The translations under genes and the position numbers were made by a program. A model generated the notes under the pieces. The model was not told where the DNA came from. It searched no databases and worked only from the letters and a program-made list of their open reading frames with translations. DNA of 64,000 nt from contig CALUYS010000002.1 of the NCBI GenBank assembly GCA_944325065.1, positions 62,001 through 126,000 on the forward strand. Reading direction: 5' to 3'. The stretch comes from Candidatus Gastranaerophilales bacterium (GTDB taxonomy: Bacteria; Cyanobacteriota; Vampirovibrionia; Gastranaerophilales; Gastranaerophilaceae). Every line of letters starts with the position of its first letter. The stretch's first letter is position 1. Of this stretch, positions 53,215 to 63,925 are shown in pieces.

Positions 53215-55107
53215 TTAAAGAGCTTCTTTTTTCTTTGATTTAGGTGCTCTTTGTACTCTTTGTTCCATTCTTTTATTTTTAAAGTCAATTAAGCGGTCAA
53301 AATCAGGACTAGCTGTAATTTCGAAATGGAAACGAGGCATATAAGTGTAAGCTAGATAATCGCTTTTTAAGAATGGAAAGCCCCAATAAAATTTACCAGT
53401 TAAATCAAATGGTAAATTAACACGAAGACCAAAACCTGCTGAAGCCATAAAATTATCAACGGTAGTATCTTCTCCCCCAGGGAATACAGCACCGTGATCA
53501 ACAAAAACGGCACCTTTTATTAAGTTTCTTGGATATATAATACGTTCTTTCCCACGTAATTTAAATTTCCATTCTGTAGGAGTAATAGGGAAAATAACTT
53601 CAGCACTTGTTAAATAACCAGTACGTCCAATTAAGCCACCTTCGCTATAACCTCTTACTGTTGATACACCACCGATTTGGAATTGGTCAAGAGATGGGAT
53701 ATATTTTTCAGGAGAATATTGCCATAAAGCTCTAAATTGTCCAACAATACCTTTCCCAAAGTCGTGAACACGAATAATACCACCTTCATAACGAAAATAT
53801 GGATCATAAAAGCTATGATCAAGCGGAAAAGAATACGATACATTGTGATTTGTATACCAAATACCTCTCCGGCTGTCCTTACGAGCCATTATACCAGTAC
53901 CTAGTGTAATAACCTTATCTTTATATATTTGAAAATCTGCAATATCAGTACTTGCTGTTTTATATGAAACATTTGAAATGCTAGTTAAATTTAACCAAGG
54001 TTTGTCAATAATTGGTTGAGAATAATATAATTGTGCTAATTGTGATTTACCACTTATGTCAAACATAGCATAATCACCTTTTGTTACGTCCATATTACTT
54101 GCAGAATATGATACACCCAAGCGACCACCTGATTTATTTAATGGAATATTATAGTCAATAAATGGTGTCACAGAAGAGGATGATAAATACGTTCCACCAG
54201 TTAATTTATCTCTATGACCTGTAAGACTATCTATTTGCCCAATTACACCAAAACGATTTTGACCAATAGTTTCACGACCAGCATTATCTGTTGCTAAGGT
54301 AATGTGAAATGGGAAATTTTCACGAACGTTAATCTCTAAATCAGAAGTCCCAACAACTTCTCCAGGAACAAGATTGGCATTTATTACTATACCCTCATTA
54401 ACATGGTTAAATTGAATTACATCTTGCTCAAGTTGCCTTAACTCAAGTAAATTACCCATATCCATGTCTTCAATCCGACGCATAATATAGCCTTTTGTCG
54501 TGCATTTATTACCACTTATTTTAACTTCACCTATACGACCTTCAAGCAAAGATATTCTAATTGTCCCATCTTCAATCACCTGATCTTCTAAGTATGCTCG
54601 AGCCGTAATATAATTTTTTTCTGCATATAACATATTAATTTTATCAATGGCATCTTTAATCTCTTGTAATTGGACAACACGACCTACAAGTGGTTCAATT
54701 ACTGATTTAATTTCATCATTTGATAAAATATATGATTCATCAACTTCTATGTTTTTTATATAAAAGCCTTCTGTTTTATATTTTTCAATTGTCATTTGTA
54801 ACTCAGAATCAACCTCATTTGCATTTGGCGTTGAATTTATAGGCAAAATATTTTTATTATTATTTTCCTCCATTTTATCATCTTGAATGTATTCTTGTTT
54901 ATTTTTAAGATCTTTAATTTTTTGATCTGTCATTTCTTTGTTTTTTAAATAATCAATTTGATGTTTGTTTAAAGCTCCAGCGTCAAACATCCCACCAGCT
55001 TGAGGAAGTTGAGGCATATTCATATTTGGTGCGGCTTGTGCAACACTTAAAGGTATTAAACCTGATAAAATCCAACACAATAAAACTTTTTTACTTTTAA
55101 ATTTCAT
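53215..55107 (-). CDS. Two-partner secretion transporter (TpsB/FhaC family)
   Basis: A 630-residue outer-membrane protein. Signal peptide (KKVLLCWILSGLIPLSVAQA), then a 90-residue coiled, Lys/Asp-rich linker, a POTRA domain (FYIKNIEVDES... VVQLQEIKDAIDKINMLYAEKNYITARAYLEDQ in part, with YLEDQVIEDGTIRISLLEGRIG), a second POTRA-like part and a 16-strand barrel with GGVSTVRGYSEGG-type VRGY motif (loop L6, the family hallmark) and FxFD-like final strand. It would export the TpsA proteins whose genes lie divergent and adjacent. Outer membrane location implies a Gram-negative envelope. Confidence 0.93.
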   Translation of the reverse strand: MKFKSKKVLLCWILSGLIPLSVAQAAPNMNMPQLPQAGGMFDAGALNKHQIDYLKNKEMTDQKIKDLKNKQEYIQDDKMEENNNKNILPINSTPNANEVDSELQMTIEKYKTEGFYIKNIEVDESYILSNDEIKSVIEPLVGRVVQLQEIKDAIDKINMLYAEKNYITARAYLEDQVIEDGTIRISLLEGRIGEVKISGNKCTTKGYIMRRIEDMDMGNLLELRQLEQDVIQFNHVNEGIVINANLVPGEVVGTSDLEINVRENFPFHITLATDNAGRETIGQNRFGVIGQIDSLTGHRDKLTGGTYLSSSSVTPFIDYNIPLNKSGGRLGVSYSASNMDVTKGDYAMFDISGKSQLAQLYYSQPIIDKPWLNLTSISNVSYKTASTDIADFQIYKDKVITLGTGIMARKDSRRGIWYTNHNVSYSFPLDHSFYDPYFRYEGGIIRVHDFGKGIVGQFRALWQYSPEKYIPSLDQFQIGGVSTVRGYSEGGLIGRTGYLTSAEVIFPITPTEWKFKLRGKERIIYPRNLIKGAVFVDHGAVFPGGEDTTVDNFMASAGFGLRVNLPFDLTGKFYWGFPFLKSDYLAYTYMPRFHFEITASPDFDRLIDFKNKRMEQRVQRAPKSKKKEAL

Positions 55108-55362: not shown

Positions 55363-57825
55363 ATGGGAAAGATGAAAAAGAATTTTGTAGTAAGTAAGTT
55401 CAGGATTTTATGTTTCACAAGTCTTGTTTTATCATTATCATTCAATTCAATTAGCTTAGCGACTAATATAACTGGAGTTTCAGGTTTTAATGGTGTATAC
55501 TATATAAAGCCACAGAAAGTTAGTGGTAATACGGGTTTTAGACAGTATTCAAATTTTTCTCTTGATAAAGGTAACACTGCAAGTTTAATGTTTGTGAATG
55601 GAATTACTAGGTATATAAATGCAGTTGATAATCGAGTTACAATTAATGGTATATTAAATACAGTAGATGCAAATAAAAATTTTTATAATGGTAAAGCTAT
55701 ATTTGTATCGCCCAAAGGTTTTGTTGTTGGAGAATCTGGCATTGTAAATGTAGGAGCTTTAGAGGTTTATACTCCTTCAAGTTCAGTTTATAATGAATTT
55801 AAAAAAAAATCTGTTAATAGGATGTCTGATATAGAGTTATCAAATGATAAATATTTTGGTAATGGGAACATTAAAATTAACGGTATGGTTTTAGCTCGTG
55901 AAAATATTACATTAAAGGGTAATAATATATATATTAACGAAGGTGCAAAAATAGCTACGGGATTTAAAAATAAAGACGAGAATAATTTAGTTTCGCAAAA
56001 AGGAATAGCAAAATATTCTCAGCAAAAAACTAAAACGAATGCTCCAATAAAAGCTGAAGAATTATTTAATATTCTTGTTAATACAGGGAAATATGGTTTT
56101 AACGTAAGTAATAATGATATTGATATAAGTTCTTCAAATGGCGATTTGATTTTAACGACAAATAGGGGAACTATTATTGAAAATTCCACTATAGTTGCGA
56201 ATGGTGATATTTCTGTTTTGAATAAAGATAGGTATAATGTAAAAATAGCTGGCGAACAATATGTTAATGGTGATTATTTCGTAAGTCAAAGTGCTCGATC
56301 GTTGGCTGGGAATTTATATATTGATGGAGATGTTAATACAAATGGTAAGATTGAATTTGAACAAAATTCTAATGGAAATACTTATATTTCAGGCAAAGTA
56401 AAATCAAAAAACGATATGTTAATTAATCAAAATCCTTATGGTAAATATACAGAAAGTGCGAATAAGGGCAATATTTATGTAGGCGGTGATTTAAAAAGTA
56501 CAGAAGGGGACATAAAAATCACTAATAATGGCATTGAAAATATTATTGTTGAAAATAATGTAGCGGTAGAAACTAGTGGCGATAAAAGTTTTATTATTGA
56601 GCATGGAAATAAAGGGGATATATTAATAAAAGAAAATGGAAATGTTGATGTTTCTAATAACGTAAAGATAATCCATAATGGAGAAGGAAATATAAATATT
56701 GATGGTAAAATAAAAGCTACAGAGCTTATAGGTGTTGAACATAATTATTCAGGGAGTACTATAAGTAATTCGCAAAATGGAAGTAACGGGGATATCAAAT
56801 TAAGTGGTATATTTGAAAGCACAAACAGTATTCTGGATGTGGAGCATAATGGAATAGGTAATATTATCATTGATGATGAAATGAAAATTATAACTCGACC
56901 TCATATAAATTCTTTAATTCGGCATGAAAATAACGGGAATATCATAGTTCAAGAAGATGGGGTTATTAATTCTAATTATAATATTCAACTTGTGAACGAT
57001 GGGTATGGTGATATAGATATCCAAGGAACTATTATAAGTGATAATGGTAATATATATTTAACAAAAAATGAAAATTCAGTCGGCAAAATTGATATCAGTG
57101 GTAACATAAAGAATAATGGAACTTGGGTTGTAAGTGATGATGGATATTTGCGAGTGATTACTGGTGTAATCAATATTCATCATGATGGAATTGCTGACAG
57201 TAATGGAGACTTGATCAATGTAAAAGATACAGGTGTATTAGAAACACAAAATTTAATAGTTATTAAAAGAGCAAATAAGGAACATGGCGATATAAATTTA
57301 GATGGTACATTATCTAGTGATTGTGAGATGAATATATATACACCAAGTGATTTAAATATAGAAGGTGATCTTGAATCGAGAAGGATATATTTTACAATTA
57401 GTGATTCAGGTAATATAAATTTAGATAGAGGAAGTATATCTTTGAAAGATGACAGTGACTTATGGGGTGGTCCTTCAACGATTAGTTTAAATAGTGATGC
57501 CGGCGATATAGTAATAGACGGTTTAGTTTATGGGAATTCGGGTGGTAATATAAGTATTATGTCTGAAACAGGTGCTATAACAATTAAGGAACATGGATAT
57601 GTTAATAATATAAATTCAAAGATTGAGCTTATAAGTTATGGAGACAAGGATATAAAAGTTCTTGGGATTCCTTCTCAGAATTTATATGGTCAAGTGGCAG
57701 CAGATAACGGTTATTTATATATAAAGCCATTAGGAGAAGGTCAATTTAAATTAGAAGGAGGAGTGGCAGGAGCATCAAATGTTGCACATACTGAAGAATC
57801 GCGTGTAATAATTCAGGAGAATTAA
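55363..57825 (+). CDS. TpsA filamentous-haemagglutinin-type adhesin, short
   Basis: An 820-residue exported protein with a signal sequence (KFRILCFTSLVLSLSFNSISLA) and an FHA N-terminal (TPS) domain: NGVYYIKPQKVSG, FSLDKGNTASL, NAVDNRVTINGIL, AIFVSPKGFVVGESGIVNVG. From about 250 on it is made of short beta-helix strands of the GDINIDG/GNIIV kind typical of right-handed beta-helix adhesins. It lies opposite its transporter gene (tpsB). No PilZ or other C-terminal domain: it ends after ...SRVIIQEN. It shares the N-terminal half with the next gene (paralogues). Confidence 0.88.
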   Translation: MGKMKKNFVVSKFRILCFTSLVLSLSFNSISLATNITGVSGFNGVYYIKPQKVSGNTGFRQYSNFSLDKGNTASLMFVNGITRYINAVDNRVTINGILNTVDANKNFYNGKAIFVSPKGFVVGESGIVNVGALEVYTPSSSVYNEFKKKSVNRMSDIELSNDKYFGNGNIKINGMVLARENITLKGNNIYINEGAKIATGFKNKDENNLVSQKGIAKYSQQKTKTNAPIKAEELFNILVNTGKYGFNVSNNDIDISSSNGDLILTTNRGTIIENSTIVANGDISVLNKDRYNVKIAGEQYVNGDYFVSQSARSLAGNLYIDGDVNTNGKIEFEQNSNGNTYISGKVKSKNDMLINQNPYGKYTESANKGNIYVGGDLKSTEGDIKITNNGIENIIVENNVAVETSGDKSFIIEHGNKGDILIKENGNVDVSNNVKIIHNGEGNINIDGKIKATELIGVEHNYSGSTISNSQNGSNGDIKLSGIFESTNSILDVEHNGIGNIIIDDEMKIITRPHINSLIRHENNGNIIVQEDGVINSNYNIQLVNDGYGDIDIQGTIISDNGNIYLTKNENSVGKIDISGNIKNNGTWVVSDDGYLRVITGVINIHHDGIADSNGDLINVKDTGVLETQNLIVIKRANKEHGDINLDGTLSSDCEMNIYTPSDLNIEGDLESRRIYFTISDSGNINLDRGSISLKDDSDLWGGPSTISLNSDAGDIVIDGLVYGNSGGNISIMSETGAITIKEHGYVNNINSKIELISYGDKDIKVLGIPSQNLYGQVAADNGYLYIKPLGEGQFKLEGGVAGASNVAHTEESRVIIQEN

Positions 57826-58003: not shown

Positions 58004-61000
58004 ATGAGACTTAACAAATTGAAAAAGAAGAAAGGAAATTTGAAAAGGGTTGTTGCTTCATTTTTAGCGATTGCCACGATAGGTTTTCAAGCTAATTTAG
58101 TTGGTTTTGCTTCAAATATAACAGGAATAACTGGAAATAATGGTGTATATAATATAAACCCTTCACAAACAAGTGGAACAACGGGGTATCGTCAATATAC
58201 AAATTTTACGCTAGATAATGGTCATACTGCTAATTTAATATTTAACGGGATAAATAGATTTATAAATGCGGTTGATAATAAAGTAACCATTAATGGTATA
58301 TTAAATAGTGTTAATGGAAGCGGTGCTTTTGCGAATGGTAGAGCTATATTTGTTTCGCCCCGAGGTTTTGTTGTTGGGTCAAGTGGTGTTGTTAACGTTG
58401 GATCATTAGGTGTTTATACGCCAACACTTGCTGCTTATAATTCTTTTAAAAATTTATCCTTAGATCAAATGTCTGATGCGTTGTTGAACGGATATGGATT
58501 AGTTGGTGACGGTCATATAACCATTGATGGAATGATATTAACTCGTGAGGGAATAACATTAAATTCTCCTAGTGTTTATATTGGGGATAATGCAAAAATG
58601 GCTCATGGTTTTAAGTCTAATAATAGTCAGTACTCACAAGATACTATAGCACAATATTCACAATTAGATGTTCAAAATGCAAGAAATAATGCTGGCAAAT
58701 TGTTTGAGCTTATAGTAAATGGTGGTAAGAATAATTTTAATTCTAGTGATATTGATTTTTCGGCACAAAATGGTAATGTAGCCATAAATACAGGTTCAAA
58801 CTATAATTTTAAGAATGCAACAATGGTTGCTAATGGCAATGTTGATATAAAAACAAATAATATGGTTACACAAGACACAAGCAATATATTAGATGACAAT
58901 CGTATACATGAGTTAGGTGGCAAGACTTATGTTGCAAATGATTATAATTTCGAATCAATTGTAAAAGATACTTTTGTTAATAGAAAAGGAGAAACCGCAA
59001 GTGGTCGTGCAACAATTAAGGTGACAGGGGAAATTAACGCTAAAAATATATCAATAAAAAATAAGATATCTGATGATGTAATAGCTAAACTTAATGATTG
59101 GGAACATAATAGTTCTTCTAATATGCATGTTCTTGAAAATAGTAAATTAAATGCAACAAATAGTATAAATTTAGAAAATGATGGTCTGCAAATGATTGTA
59201 GCAGGTGATTTGAATTTAGATAATTATAATAATGTTGCTGGTGCTGGAATAAATATAATAAATAATTCTGCTTATGTAGGACCTGGTAATACATTTGGGA
59301 CTTATATCGATGGAAATATAACTGTTAATAATGGCGATTTAAATGTGATTACTAATTTTAAAGGTCCAAATACTTCAGCTTCATCTATTGGTTTTGATAA
59401 AAATTCTAATATTAATGTGACAAATGGTAATGTTTATATTAGTATGGCTGATAACTTGATGAACGATGCTAAAGGTGGCTATGGTGGAATATATTTACTT
59501 GGAAATACGATAAATATAAAAGAGCAGGGTAATCTTACAATAAGTGATTATTCTAAAATTATTGGTGATAACAGTGTTGTAGGTGGTCGAGTAATGTTAA
59601 ATGGTAATATTGATCTTGAAAATGGAGATGTTAATATTACTAAATTTAGACCTTATGGTAATACTATAGATGGTAATGATAACTTGGCTCTAATTCCAGA
59701 TACAAATATTTATAATTTAGGGACTATTATAGCAAATGGTAATATTGATATTAAAAATGAAGTAGGGGGTATTGTAGCTAATGGTACAATAGCTAGTACG
59801 GATAATGGGAATTCTAATTATAATGGTATCAATATTGTAACAACTGAAAATTCTAGAGGTCAATTGACTGTTGGCGGTAAATTAACTTCTGACAAAAATA
59901 TTAATATAGAACATAGTGGAACTGGTGAGCTAAAGGTTTCTTCGCAACCTGAATATTTTTATTTTAAGACACAATTTATTGACAATGTTTCTATGGTAAG
60001 CTCAGTTGCACTTTCTGATACTCCAAACGAGATTGAATATGAAGAATCGACTCTTGTTTATTTTGATGGAGATGTTATAAATACTAAAGATTTATATATA
60101 TCGAATAAAGCTCTTATAGAAAGTAAAGGGTCAGATGGAAAAATATCATTAGTATATAAAGGTATAGACGGTGGTGTTAATATAAATAGTGATCTAAATA
60201 GTGCAGGTGGGTTAGATATTATTAATTCAGGTAATCGAGGAATAATGTTTAATAATGATATAATCACTGCACAAGGGAATACTTTTATTAATGACACTGG
60301 TATTGCTAGTATAAATATAAATAAAACTCTAAATACAGGTGGTTTAGAAATACAAAATGAAAACGAAGGAGACATAAATGTTTCGGGAACAATAAATAGT
60401 TCAGGTACTGTTCTTGTTCGTAACAATACAAGTGGCAAAATAGATATATCAGGAGCATTAAATAATTCATCAACAAATGGAACAACTAAAATTGTTAATG
60501 AAACATCAAATGTGGGTGGTATAAATGTTTCTGGAGCTATTGGTGCAAGGAATGAAACAACAATAACAAACAAAGGGGATAGTTTAATAAATATATCAGG
60601 TGATGTTGTTGATAATATTGTAGGTATAGCAGTAGAGCAAGCAAATGCTGGAGTAAATGGTGGGGTATCAATTTCAAAAGATATAACAACTTCTGGTTAT
60701 TTAACAATAAGCAATAAAGGTCAACAAGGAATAACATTAACTAATGGAACAAATACTACAAGTACTGGTAAAACAACAATAAAAGATACAAGTAATGTAG
60801 GTATAAATATTGGTAATAATACAAATATAAATGCTGGTTCTCTTGCGGTTATTAAAGAGGGACAAGGCGGAATAAATATGCAAGGGGTTGTTTCTTCAAC
60901 TGGAGATACTCTTGTGGCAAATTATGGGACAGATGATATCAATATTTCTAATACATTTGCAGGCGGTAAAACAACAATATATAATGATGTAAATGGTAGT

Positions 61001-63925
61001 GATATCAATATATCTGGTTCAGTTACAACAAATGGTGACACATTAATAGTTCAAGGTGCAGAAGGTGCATTGAATATAACAGGAGCTATTAATAATAATT
61101 CACAAGGTAAAACAGTAATAAGCAATGTAAATGGTTCTTCATTTAATGTTGGCAATATGAATACAAATGGTTTTACATTGATAGAGAATTCTTCAGATAC
61201 AGATATAGCTTTAAATGGAAATATAAATACGAATAATGGAGATTTATCAATACAAAATCAAAATTATGAAATAGCAATAAATAAAACTGATGTAGAAAAT
61301 TCTGATGCAGTTTCATTAACACGTAATAGTGTCGATTCGCCTAATAAGAATGGCGGAATTGTAGCAAATGGAACGCTTGCAGGTAATGATATATATATTC
61401 AAAATTCAGGTGATAATGGTATATTAACAAACAATAATATAACAGCATCTGGTAATTTAATGATAACAAGTGATAATGCGAATATTAATTTGCAAAATGG
61501 TAACCTATCAGGTAATAGTGTTATAGTATCAGCATCAAATAACACAACAGGTGGTATAAATATTGATTCCAATATAATATCCCAAGAAATGTTATTACTT
61601 GAAAACGCAGGTAGTGGTAATATTATCGTTAATGGAAATCTTACAGGTAATAATGGAAATGTATTGATTGAAAATCAAACATATGATATAGAAACACCAC
61701 GTGCTTCATTTAATAATGATTATATAGTTCTTGATGTAAACCGAATAAATCAAGCATCAAAAAATACAAATAGCGGGATATATACAACAGGTGCAATAAG
61801 TGGTGCTAATATTTACATTCAAAACTCTGGTAATCAAGGTATTGAAGCTAATTCAAATATTACATCTCAAGGTGATGTGTTGATTACAAATAATGCTGGA
61901 AGTATTAATTTGGTGGGTAAGAATATAATTGGTAATAATATTACTGTTTCAAATTCAAATAATGCAAATAGTGGTATAACTGTAGGTTCGAATATTACAG
62001 CTCAAAATGCTGGTATGTTGACAATAGAAAATGCAGCACCTGGTTCAATATTATTAAATGGTAATTTAAATGCAAATGGCGGTTATATTATAGTAGAAAA
62101 TCAAACATACGATATAGCAACACCACGTGTTTCATTTAATAATGATTATATAGTTCTTGATGTAAACCGAATAAATCAAGCATCACAATATGTTGATGGT
62201 GGTATAGTTGCAAATGGTACAATAAATGGAGGCGATATATTTATACAAAATGCAGGTAGTGAAGGTATTGCTGTAAATAATAACATAACATCCGATAATT
62301 TAATGATAACTAATGATAATGGTGGGATTAGTATCGGAAATGTTGATATTGTAGCTCAATATCGTGATGTAGTAATTTCAAATTCAAACAATGCTACAGG
62401 TGGTATAAATATAGCAGCTGACATACAAGCAAACAATGGAGATGTTGTTGTTGAAAATGCAGGAAATGGCAACATTGAATTAGGCATAACAAGTGCTTTA
62501 TCAGGCGATCGTGTTCTTGTAGAAAATCAAACATACGATATAGCAACGCCACGTTTTCCTGAAGGAGATAATATATTGCTAGGTGTTGAACGTAGCGAAA
62601 TACCATCTTCTAATCAAAATGGTGGTATAATCTCAAACGGTAATATAAGTGGTAATGAAGTTTATATCCAAAATTCAGGAGATAATGGTATAACTACAAA
62701 TGGTGATATTCAAGGTAATGATGTAGTTGCAATAACTAATAATAGTGGTGCAATAAGTTTGAATAATGGTGGCACTGTGAGTGGAAATGAAGTTATTATC
62801 TCGCAATCAAATCAAGGAACAGGCGGTGTTACAATTGATTCAAATGTAACAGGAACAAATTTAGTTCTGATAGAAAATGCAGGTTCAGGGGATCTTTCAA
62901 TAGGTGGTGATGTGAATGGCGGAAACATATCTGTTCAAAATCAAACATATGACATAGAAACCCCACAATTTAAACATAATGATGGTTTAATTACACTTGA
63001 TGTAAATCGAATAGATCAAGATACACCAAATAAAGATGGCGGAATTATAATTGATGGTGATATAACAGGCAATGAAGATACAAAAATACAAAATTCAGGT
63101 GATGATGGCATAATAGCAAATGGTGATGTTACAGGCGGTGATGTTGCTATCACTAATAATGGAGGTGATGTTAACATAAATGGTAATGTTGATGGTGATA
63201 ATGTAACAATTTCAAATTCTGATAATGGCGGTGAAGTTAACATAAATGGTAATGTTGACGGAAATGATGTACTTGTTGAAAATAATGGTAGCGGAGATAT
63301 CAATAATCCTAATAATGTAAACGGAGATATAAAAGATCATGAATATGGTATAGAAACACCACGTAATCCATCAAATGACCCATATATAACACTTGATGTG
63401 ACACGTAATCCATTCCCTTCTCCTATAATCCCAACACCAACACCAACACCAACACCAACGCCTGTTCCAACTCCAAATAGTACTCCAGAATTAAAAGATA
63501 ATGATCCAACAAGGCTTATATATGATCGTGAACAAGATAATAATTTCTTAGAGTTAAAACGTGAATCAATAAGATATGGAGTTAATGGAGATTCATTATC
63601 GTTAAACGAAGGAAGCGAGCACATTGAAAGTATAGTTGATATATCTAAAACAGGTTTAGCTGTAAAGACTGATGGTAATTTAAAACTTAACGATGAAGTA
63701 AAGGTTAGCTTTGCTTATAAAGGAATAGAGGTAGATGCAACAGCTAAAGTTATGCGAGTTAATCAATCTAATAACATTGCAGGGTTGAAATTTACAGATT
63801 TAGATACTTTAACAGCAAATAAAATATTATATCTAAGTATGTTAAATGAAGCTCAAAAAGAACAAACAGCTGCAAATGATCAAAATCAACAGCCTTCGTT
63901 TATGAATGTACTATCAAAGCTGTAG
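58004..63925 (+). CDS. Giant TpsA adhesin with C-terminal PilZ domain
   Basis: A 1973-residue exported adhesin starting at ATG 58004 (AGGAG 11 bases upstream; an upstream GTG at 57965 is possible). A basic signal sequence (LKRVVASFLAIATIGFQANL) and TPS domain (NGVYNINPSQTSG, AIFVSPRGFVVGSSGVVNVG) resemble the previous gene. A long beta-helix follows, including six copies of a 140-residue unit. A Thr-Pro linker at about 1806-1828 leads into a PilZ-type domain: R1853-x3-R1857, then D1879-I-S1881-x2-G1884, then IAGLKFTDLD, which is the canonical c-di-GMP-binding arrangement RxxxR...(D/N)xSxxG. A 50-residue tail follows. A surface adhesin carrying a c-di-GMP domain at its C-terminus is odd. The transporter is TpsB at 53215. 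Confidence 0.85.
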   Translation: MRLNKLKKKKGNLKRVVASFLAIATIGFQANLVGFASNITGITGNNGVYNINPSQTSGTTGYRQYTNFTLDNGHTANLIFNGINRFINAVDNKVTINGILNSVNGSGAFANGRAIFVSPRGFVVGSSGVVNVGSLGVYTPTLAAYNSFKNLSLDQMSDALLNGYGLVGDGHITIDGMILTREGITLNSPSVYIGDNAKMAHGFKSNNSQYSQDTIAQYSQLDVQNARNNAGKLFELIVNGGKNNFNSSDIDFSAQNGNVAINTGSNYNFKNATMVANGNVDIKTNNMVTQDTSNILDDNRIHELGGKTYVANDYNFESIVKDTFVNRKGETASGRATIKVTGEINAKNISIKNKISDDVIAKLNDWEHNSSSNMHVLENSKLNATNSINLENDGLQMIVAGDLNLDNYNNVAGAGINIINNSAYVGPGNTFGTYIDGNITVNNGDLNVITNFKGPNTSASSIGFDKNSNINVTNGNVYISMADNLMNDAKGGYGGIYLLGNTINIKEQGNLTISDYSKIIGDNSVVGGRVMLNGNIDLENGDVNITKFRPYGNTIDGNDNLALIPDTNIYNLGTIIANGNIDIKNEVGGIVANGTIASTDNGNSNYNGINIVTTENSRGQLTVGGKLTSDKNINIEHSGTGELKVSSQPEYFYFKTQFIDNVSMVSSVALSDTPNEIEYEESTLVYFDGDVINTKDLYISNKALIESKGSDGKISLVYKGIDGGVNINSDLNSAGGLDIINSGNRGIMFNNDIITAQGNTFINDTGIASININKTLNTGGLEIQNENEGDINVSGTINSSGTVLVRNNTSGKIDISGALNNSSTNGTTKIVNETSNVGGINVSGAIGARNETTITNKGDSLINISGDVVDNIVGIAVEQANAGVNGGVSISKDITTSGYLTISNKGQQGITLTNGTNTTSTGKTTIKDTSNVGINIGNNTNINAGSLAVIKEGQGGINMQGVVSSTGDTLVANYGTDDINISNTFAGGKTTIYNDVNGSDINISGSVTTNGDTLIVQGAEGALNITGAINNNSQGKTVISNVNGSSFNVGNMNTNGFTLIENSSDTDIALNGNINTNNGDLSIQNQNYEIAINKTDVENSDAVSLTRNSVDSPNKNGGIVANGTLAGNDIYIQNSGDNGILTNNNITASGNLMITSDNANINLQNGNLSGNSVIVSASNNTTGGINIDSNIISQEMLLLENAGSGNIIVNGNLTGNNGNVLIENQTYDIETPRASFNNDYIVLDVNRINQASKNTNSGIYTTGAISGANIYIQNSGNQGIEANSNITSQGDVLITNNAGSINLVGKNIIGNNITVSNSNNANSGITVGSNITAQNAGMLTIENAAPGSILLNGNLNANGGYIIVENQTYDIATPRVSFNNDYIVLDVNRINQASQYVDGGIVANGTINGGDIFIQNAGSEGIAVNNNITSDNLMITNDNGGISIGNVDIVAQYRDVVISNSNNATGGINIAADIQANNGDVVVENAGNGNIELGITSALSGDRVLVENQTYDIATPRFPEGDNILLGVERSEIPSSNQNGGIISNGNISGNEVYIQNSGDNGITTNGDIQGNDVVAITNNSGAISLNNGGTVSGNEVIISQSNQGTGGVTIDSNVTGTNLVLIENAGSGDLSIGGDVNGGNISVQNQTYDIETPQFKHNDGLITLDVNRIDQDTPNKDGGIIIDGDITGNEDTKIQNSGDDGIIANGDVTGGDVAITNNGGDVNINGNVDGDNVTISNSDNGGEVNINGNVDGNDVLVENNGSGDINNPNNVNGDIKDHEYGIETPRNPSNDPYITLDVTRNPFPSPIIPTPTPTPTPTPVPTPNSTPELKDNDPTRLIYDREQDNNFLELKRESIRYGVNGDSLSLNEGSEHIESIVDISKTGLAVKTDGNLKLNDEVKVSFAYKGIEVDATAKVMRVNQSNNIAGLKFTDLDTLTANKILYLSMLNEAQKEQTAANDQNQQPSFMNVLSKL
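61256..63400 (+). repeat. Tandem coding repeats (six units, about 140 aa each)
   Basis: Units start at 61256, 61673, 62099, 62525, 62939 and 63335 (periods 417, 426, 426, 414, 396 bases). Each begins with NQTYDI(E/A)TPR or a variant, then a SLTR/LDVNR-like stretch, GGI(V/I), IQN(S/A)G. The stretch 61705-61759 is identical over 55 bases to 62131-62185. Confidence 0.88.
63431..63460 (+). repeat. Hexanucleotide repeat CCAACA coding Thr-Pro linker
   Basis: Four CCAACA units followed by CCAACG encode alternating Pro and Thr. Such simple repeats can change copy number and so linker length. They lie between the beta-helix and the PilZ domain. Confidence 0.9.

Follow-up and report, generated by a model that had tools for sequence, protein, structure and literature searches.

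TpsA proteins exit the cell N-terminus first. The retention tails described for two of them, CdrA and FhaB, are periplasmic (PMC5422565, PMC8263021). In CdrA of Pseudomonas aeruginosa, LapG cuts the periplasmic C-terminal tail when c-di-GMP is low (PMC5422565, PMC4694147). The prodomain of FhaB in Bordetella comprises the PNT, a proline-rich region and an extreme C-terminus of ~98 residues, and these last residues shield the prodomain until they are removed by DegP (PMC8263021). High c-di-GMP holds ExlA of Pseudomonas aeruginosa at the outer membrane, by a route that is unknown (PMC8472254). Control of TPS retention by c-di-GMP is already known; it runs through LapD/LapG in CdrA, and the link is missing in ExlA.

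The window is the whole stretch of DNA analysed here, 64,000 nucleotides from a Candidatus Gastranaerophilales bacterium. The ORF at 58004–63925 on the forward strand starts with an ATG at 58004, stops at 63925 and has an AGGAG-like sequence about 10 bases 5′ of the start. It is a genuine gene, and its product is a protein of 1973 residues. The features of the locus are given below.

53215–55107, reverse strand: TpsB outer-membrane transporter with POTRA_2 and ShlB domains (Pfam).
55363–57825, forward strand: tandem TpsA paralogue of 820 residues, without linker or PilZ (NF012204 at 4.6e-39; C-terminus).
58004–63925, forward strand: TpsA-type adhesin with a C-terminal PilZ domain, 1973 residues (ORF, Pfam, NF012204 and a full-length relative, L074).
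58004–58111, forward strand: putative long signal peptide, residues 1–36 (a Lys-rich n-region, then a hydrophobic core, by eye).
58112–58720, forward strand: TPS secretion domain, residues ~37–239 (NF012204 at residues 49–196; model matches).
58721–63406, forward strand: repetitive beta-helix-like body, residues 240–1801 (sequence and motif positions).
63407–63556, forward strand: Thr-Pro/polar linker, residues 1802–1851 (sequence; low confidence and strandless in the model).
63557–63826, forward strand: PilZ domain, residues 1852–1941 (PF07238, AlphaFold, Foldseek and motif invariance).
63827–63922, forward strand: predicted C-terminal helix and short polar tail, residues 1942–1973 (model and sequence).

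The N-terminus of the protein, residues 49–196, matches NF012204 (7e-38), the NCBIfam model for the secretion domain of LktA-type filamentous adhesins. The same model is matched by 32 of 32 relatives and by the giant ORFs described below. The Pfam TPS model PF05860 matches six of the 32 relatives, and gives nothing above its report threshold on the N-terminus of the window protein. A structural model of the TPS domain has TPS proteins (HxuA, EtpA, HpmA, HMW1, FHA) as all of its top 21 PDB matches, with weak E-values of at least 2e-3; a profile of the domain had no match among PDB sequences. The likeness to the LktA family (FxxPxG secretion domain) is a model match confined to this N-terminal domain, and the name implies no leukotoxin activity for the window protein, whose C-terminal PilZ lies outside NF012204.

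The putative signal peptide and the N-terminal TPS domain assigned by NF012204 are those expected of a TpsA protein, and the gene for the partner TpsB lies upstream of the adhesin on the opposite strand. The sequence-only reading had named the product a two-partner adhesin. We infer this label from the secretion domain, the beta-repeat body and the TpsB gene nearby. Along the body, a YDI-E/A-TP...LDVxR motif repeats every ~140 residues. The PilZ-less paralogue sits between TpsB and the PilZ-tailed adhesin. Tandems of PilZ-plus and PilZ-minus TpsA genes also occur in L086, L094, L106 and L118; for most relatives no TpsB was found within the ~20 kb fetched per locus.

The same earlier reading had described the C-terminus as a complete PilZ domain with R-x3-R and D-x-S-x2-G, reached through a Thr-Pro linker, and both elements are present. 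PF07238 matches residues 1852–1941 at an E-value of 4.1e-12 and 46.8 bits, against a curated cut-off of 22.5, as the sole PilZ match. All five residues, R1853, R1857, D1879, S1881 and G1884, stand at the positions that had been given. In an AlphaFold model of the last 235 residues, the chain is disordered or of low confidence to about residue 1855, and is then confidently predicted as the six-strand barrel with C-terminal helix of a PilZ domain, the barrel strands having a pLDDT of about 90–97. No membrane segment is seen in residues 1942–1973, either in the model or in the sequence. In a Foldseek search with the tail model the top PDB matches are all PilZ, the best being the c-di-GMP-bound Alg44 PilZ structures 4rt0 and 4xrn. 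In sequence comparison with the PDB, phmmer with the window tail gave no match, and a tail profile gave a single one, Lpg0364 at 0.007. The predicted fold and the motif are common to the window tail, Alg44 PilZ (4rt0) and other c-di-GMP-bound PilZ domains. Alg44 and those other domains are cytoplasmic, whereas the window-type PilZ sits on Sec-targeted proteins.

The conservation of the tail was examined in an alignment of 65 distinct tails with a median pairwise identity of 54% and a minimum of 24%. Only seven full core columns are invariant: R1853, R1857, S1881, G1884, G1927, F1930 and L1942. At position 1879, 51 tails have D and 14 have N, so that both RxxxR and (D/N)xSxxG are kept throughout, and a set of 13 representatives at a 60% identity threshold gave the same invariance. 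A degenerate PilZ is ruled out by this invariant motif. Because the motif positions do not vary among such diverged tails, strong selection is acting to keep the ligand site. By the accepted view, PilZ proteins that lose c-di-GMP binding also lose the RxxxR and [DN]xSxxG motif. That four of the seven invariant columns belong to the c-di-GMP motif argues that the PilZ tail may bind c-di-GMP, or a closely similar ligand, in vivo.

The fusion had been treated as a singular protein, and that observation is right but understated, as the window protein belongs to a large family. Of 286 genomes drawn from the order, 163 gave matches in a search with the tail, most of them at the end of an ORF of 1000–6400 residues, and dozens of TPS adhesins of 1040–6400 residues carry the PilZ ending within Gastranaerophilales. 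Among the loci fetched, about 45 ORFs of 1040–3225 residues are complete from TPS start to PilZ end. A second type consists of giant TpsA-like ORFs of 5170–6232 residues with the same TPS and PilZ ends and an adjoining divergent TpsB; giants were found at L085, L087, L091, L109 and L110. PilZ-tailed adhesins are spread across this order of gut and rumen bacteria, and a tail-profile search across the phylum (tally 47/117) returned no genome from outside the order among the matches listed. The nearest relative, L074, is on an independent Candidatus Gastranaerophilales MAG contig and encodes the same protein, with 72% identity over the whole length and 85% in the tail. An assembly joint between a TPS protein and a separate PilZ gene is ruled out, since L074 and many other ORFs in independently assembled genomes encode the same TPS-to-PilZ protein; a chance HMM match is opposed by the PilZ E-value of 4e-12. 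An artefact of either kind has next to no probability.

Within the family PilZ is always at the extreme end, 5–47 residues from the C-terminus. Paralogues without PilZ in these tandem arrays end directly after the body, and the linker and PilZ together thus behave as an optional module.

In the window protein the body ends near residue 1801 and PilZ begins at 1852, leaving a linker of ~52 residues, ~18 nm when fully stretched. It is long enough for the TpsB channel, and short for the outer membrane, the periplasm and the inner membrane together. The earlier proposal, an adhesin anchored through the envelope with its linker crossing the periplasm, does not agree well with this length. The linkers of relatives range from 57 to more than 500 residues.

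The side of the membrane on which the PilZ domain works was approached through its stand-alone relatives. Many short PilZ ORFs in the relatives are adhesin tails cut by contig ends, and these were not counted. The ten stand-alone PilZ proteins whose start is visible all show a charged n-region or a Lys-containing start followed by a hydrophobic core, most have a plausible signal-peptidase site, and all ten keep RxxxR and [DN]xSxxG. For eight of the ten, a PilZ-tailed adhesin lies on the same strand 39–186 bp before the start of the frame. The window's own genome has just one further PilZ protein, L042:4261–4785 on contig C20, and it is among these ten; it begins with a signal peptide and keeps RxxxR and DxSxxG intact, and its relatives in other genomes lie directly 3′ of PilZ-tailed adhesins. 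The signal peptides were judged by hydropathy and the relatives are not independent, which limits the weight of this evidence on the compartment. In a tree that rests on few columns and leaves many forks open, the tails and the small stand-alone proteins form one clade, and the order's YcgR-like cytoplasmic PilZ proteins fall outside it (100/100).

Cysteine content was compared as well. The tails are cysteine-free in 61 of 65 cases, against 0 of 30 cytoplasmic PilZ domains. The 13 representative tails hold 1 cysteine in 1244 residues and 5 cytoplasmic PilZ domains hold 12 in 496, where the background at the same loci is 1.24 per 100 residues in presumed cytoplasmic proteins and 0.38 in presumed exported ones. 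Two companion PilZ proteins of the window's own genus do have cysteines. A classifier of compartment from whole composition gave the tails an intermediate median of 0.47 and the window tail 0.33, at the cytoplasmic median; with an AUC of 0.74 it is too weak to serve as the sole test.

The signal peptides of the stand-alone relatives and the depletion of cysteine point outward for PilZ, and the conservation of the motif and the composition score of the window tail point inward. Taken with the linker length, the evidence leans towards a tail outside the cytoplasm, and the cytoplasmic PilZ of the sequence-only reading is not supported by it.

The locus resembles each of the described systems in part. 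As in CdrA/CdrB, a TpsA adhesin may be held in TpsB by its C-terminal tail, and retention may depend on c-di-GMP; the CdrA tail, however, is cut by LapG, with c-di-GMP sensed by a separate LapD, whereas the window protein has a PilZ of its own. With FhaB it has in common a body followed by a Pro-rich stretch and a folded C-terminal module of ~100 residues, and the tail is expected on the cell side of TpsB; the FhaB C-terminus is not a PilZ, has no c-di-GMP site and is removed by DegP/CtpA (PMC8263021). ExlA/ExlB is another case of a TPS protein kept at the outer membrane under high c-di-GMP (PMC8472254), but the effect of c-di-GMP there is indirect and ExlA has no described PilZ. In agreement with the earlier statement that no TpsA of this kind was described, no paper on a TpsA with a PilZ domain or on adhesins of Gastranaerophilales was found in the open-access literature.

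The position of PilZ fits the known retention tails of CdrA and FhaB, and we take the tail to be a candidate ligand-dependent retention plug. The adhesin would be exported from its N- to its C-terminus, first by Sec and then by TpsB, until the last ~100 residues form a PilZ barrel too folded for further threading. Because a folded barrel is not threadable, its C-terminus would keep the chain on the cell, and the low-complexity linker would lie inside the TpsB channel. A ligand bound by the invariant RxxxR/[DN]xSxxG residues, with c-di-GMP the likeliest candidate, would tighten the plug or pair PilZ domains, the partner being another adhesin tail or a small signal-peptide PilZ protein. Ligand binding would thereby set retention versus release, and the PilZ-less paralogues, ending after the body, would be the free-release form. 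The sequence suggests in this way a switch built into the adhesin that may hold or release it. That the linker and PilZ are a ligand-tuned retention tail, with the plug at the periplasmic face of the outer membrane rather than in the cytoplasm, is our tentative preference, at a little under an even chance. If the adhesin carries its own receptor domain, no link from messenger to surface attachment could be shorter.

A plug could also form one step earlier. According to the sequence-only reading, PilZ would fold on c-di-GMP in the cytoplasm, halt export at its last step and leave an anchor spanning the envelope. Spelled out, the domain would fold before SecA reaches it and so stop export by Sec; when c-di-GMP falls, PilZ would unfold and be exported, and the adhesin would be freed. 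c-di-GMP is made in the cytoplasm by GGDEF enzymes. With its ligand cytoplasmic and GGDEF in every genome, this lock explains the undecayed site most simply, and avoidance of cysteine could stem from eventual export. However, the stand-alone members have a signal peptide but no adhesin body and are hard to account for as Sec locks, and linkers of ~52 residues in the window and 57 in the shortest relative are short for the distance between cell surface and cytoplasm unless the body is partly unfolded. A stable plug in Sec would also block translocons. We consider the cytoplasmic lock possible though rather unlikely. If retention by the tail is granted, a periplasmic plug is slightly the more likely of the two; it fits the signal-peptide companions and the linker, and a cytoplasmic plug fits the known location of c-di-GMP.

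The difficulty for the periplasmic plug is its ligand. c-di-GMP has no known action in the periplasm, and because c-di-GMP is made in the cytoplasm, a periplasmic PilZ, for all its perfect motif, is without an obvious ligand. One answer is re-use of the PilZ fold outside the cell, as a structural cap or as a binder of another phosphate-rich ligand, without control by c-di-GMP. The signal peptides on all stand-alone relatives, the cysteine-poor tails and the lack of any known periplasmic c-di-GMP are consistent with this reading, but 65 tails and ten stand-alone proteins retain all five canonical c-di-GMP positions, and the best matches of the predicted fold are c-di-GMP-bound PilZ domains. Such re-use seems improbable, as do the ligands it would call for: other nucleotides, lipopolysaccharide, or host or neighbour molecules. 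Another answer keeps the ligand-tuned periplasmic plug, with the PilZ tails and the small secreted companions binding c-di-GMP, or a cyclic dinucleotide like it, outside the cytoplasm; a nucleotide that is exported, or that comes from a neighbour, would then control retention of the adhesin. This is quite unlikely in our estimate; no PilZ precedent for cyclic-dinucleotide signalling outside the cytoplasm was found in the open-access literature. A periplasmic tail would imply signalling of that kind, given its intact c-di-GMP site. A PilZ-tailed TpsA would extend c-di-GMP-linked retention of TpsA proteins, and binding of a cyclic dinucleotide by an extracytoplasmic PilZ would make it categorically new.

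The genomes were also searched for the proteins of c-di-GMP signalling. GGDEF genes are present in 286 of 286 Gastranaerophilales genomes searched; their co-occurrence with PilZ tails is thereby uninformative on the ligand, and was dropped as a test. A search for LapG (PF06035) matched 0 of the order's 286 genomes, and one for EAL domains matched nothing in the window's own genome; the positive control matched in both. PF16448, the model for the HAMP-GGDEF-EAL receptor LapD, has no match in the own genome, though no control matched with that model. The absence of LapG and of EAL makes the LapD/LapG route unlikely, in line with the independence from it proposed earlier, and control through LapD/LapG was rejected. 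The own genome has eight GGDEF matches, without an EAL domain, and an HD-GYP-like ORF, recognised by eye, at L042:3–449. Breakdown of c-di-GMP there presumably proceeds by HD-GYP-type enzymes such as this one.

At L100:10914–14307, a TPS ORF of 534 residues is directly followed by a PilZ-ended ORF of 581 residues without a TPS domain; it looks like one adhesin gene split by a frame change or an assembly error. The make-up of the linker ahead of PilZ differs widely in the family (DADADA, DTDTDT, PTDPPTD, EPEPEP). In L106, L118, L105, L116, L120 and others, linkers reach ~500 residues of (DA)n, (DT)n, (DS)n or (PTDP)n, and these repeats resemble the Ser-Asp stalks of Gram-positive surface proteins.
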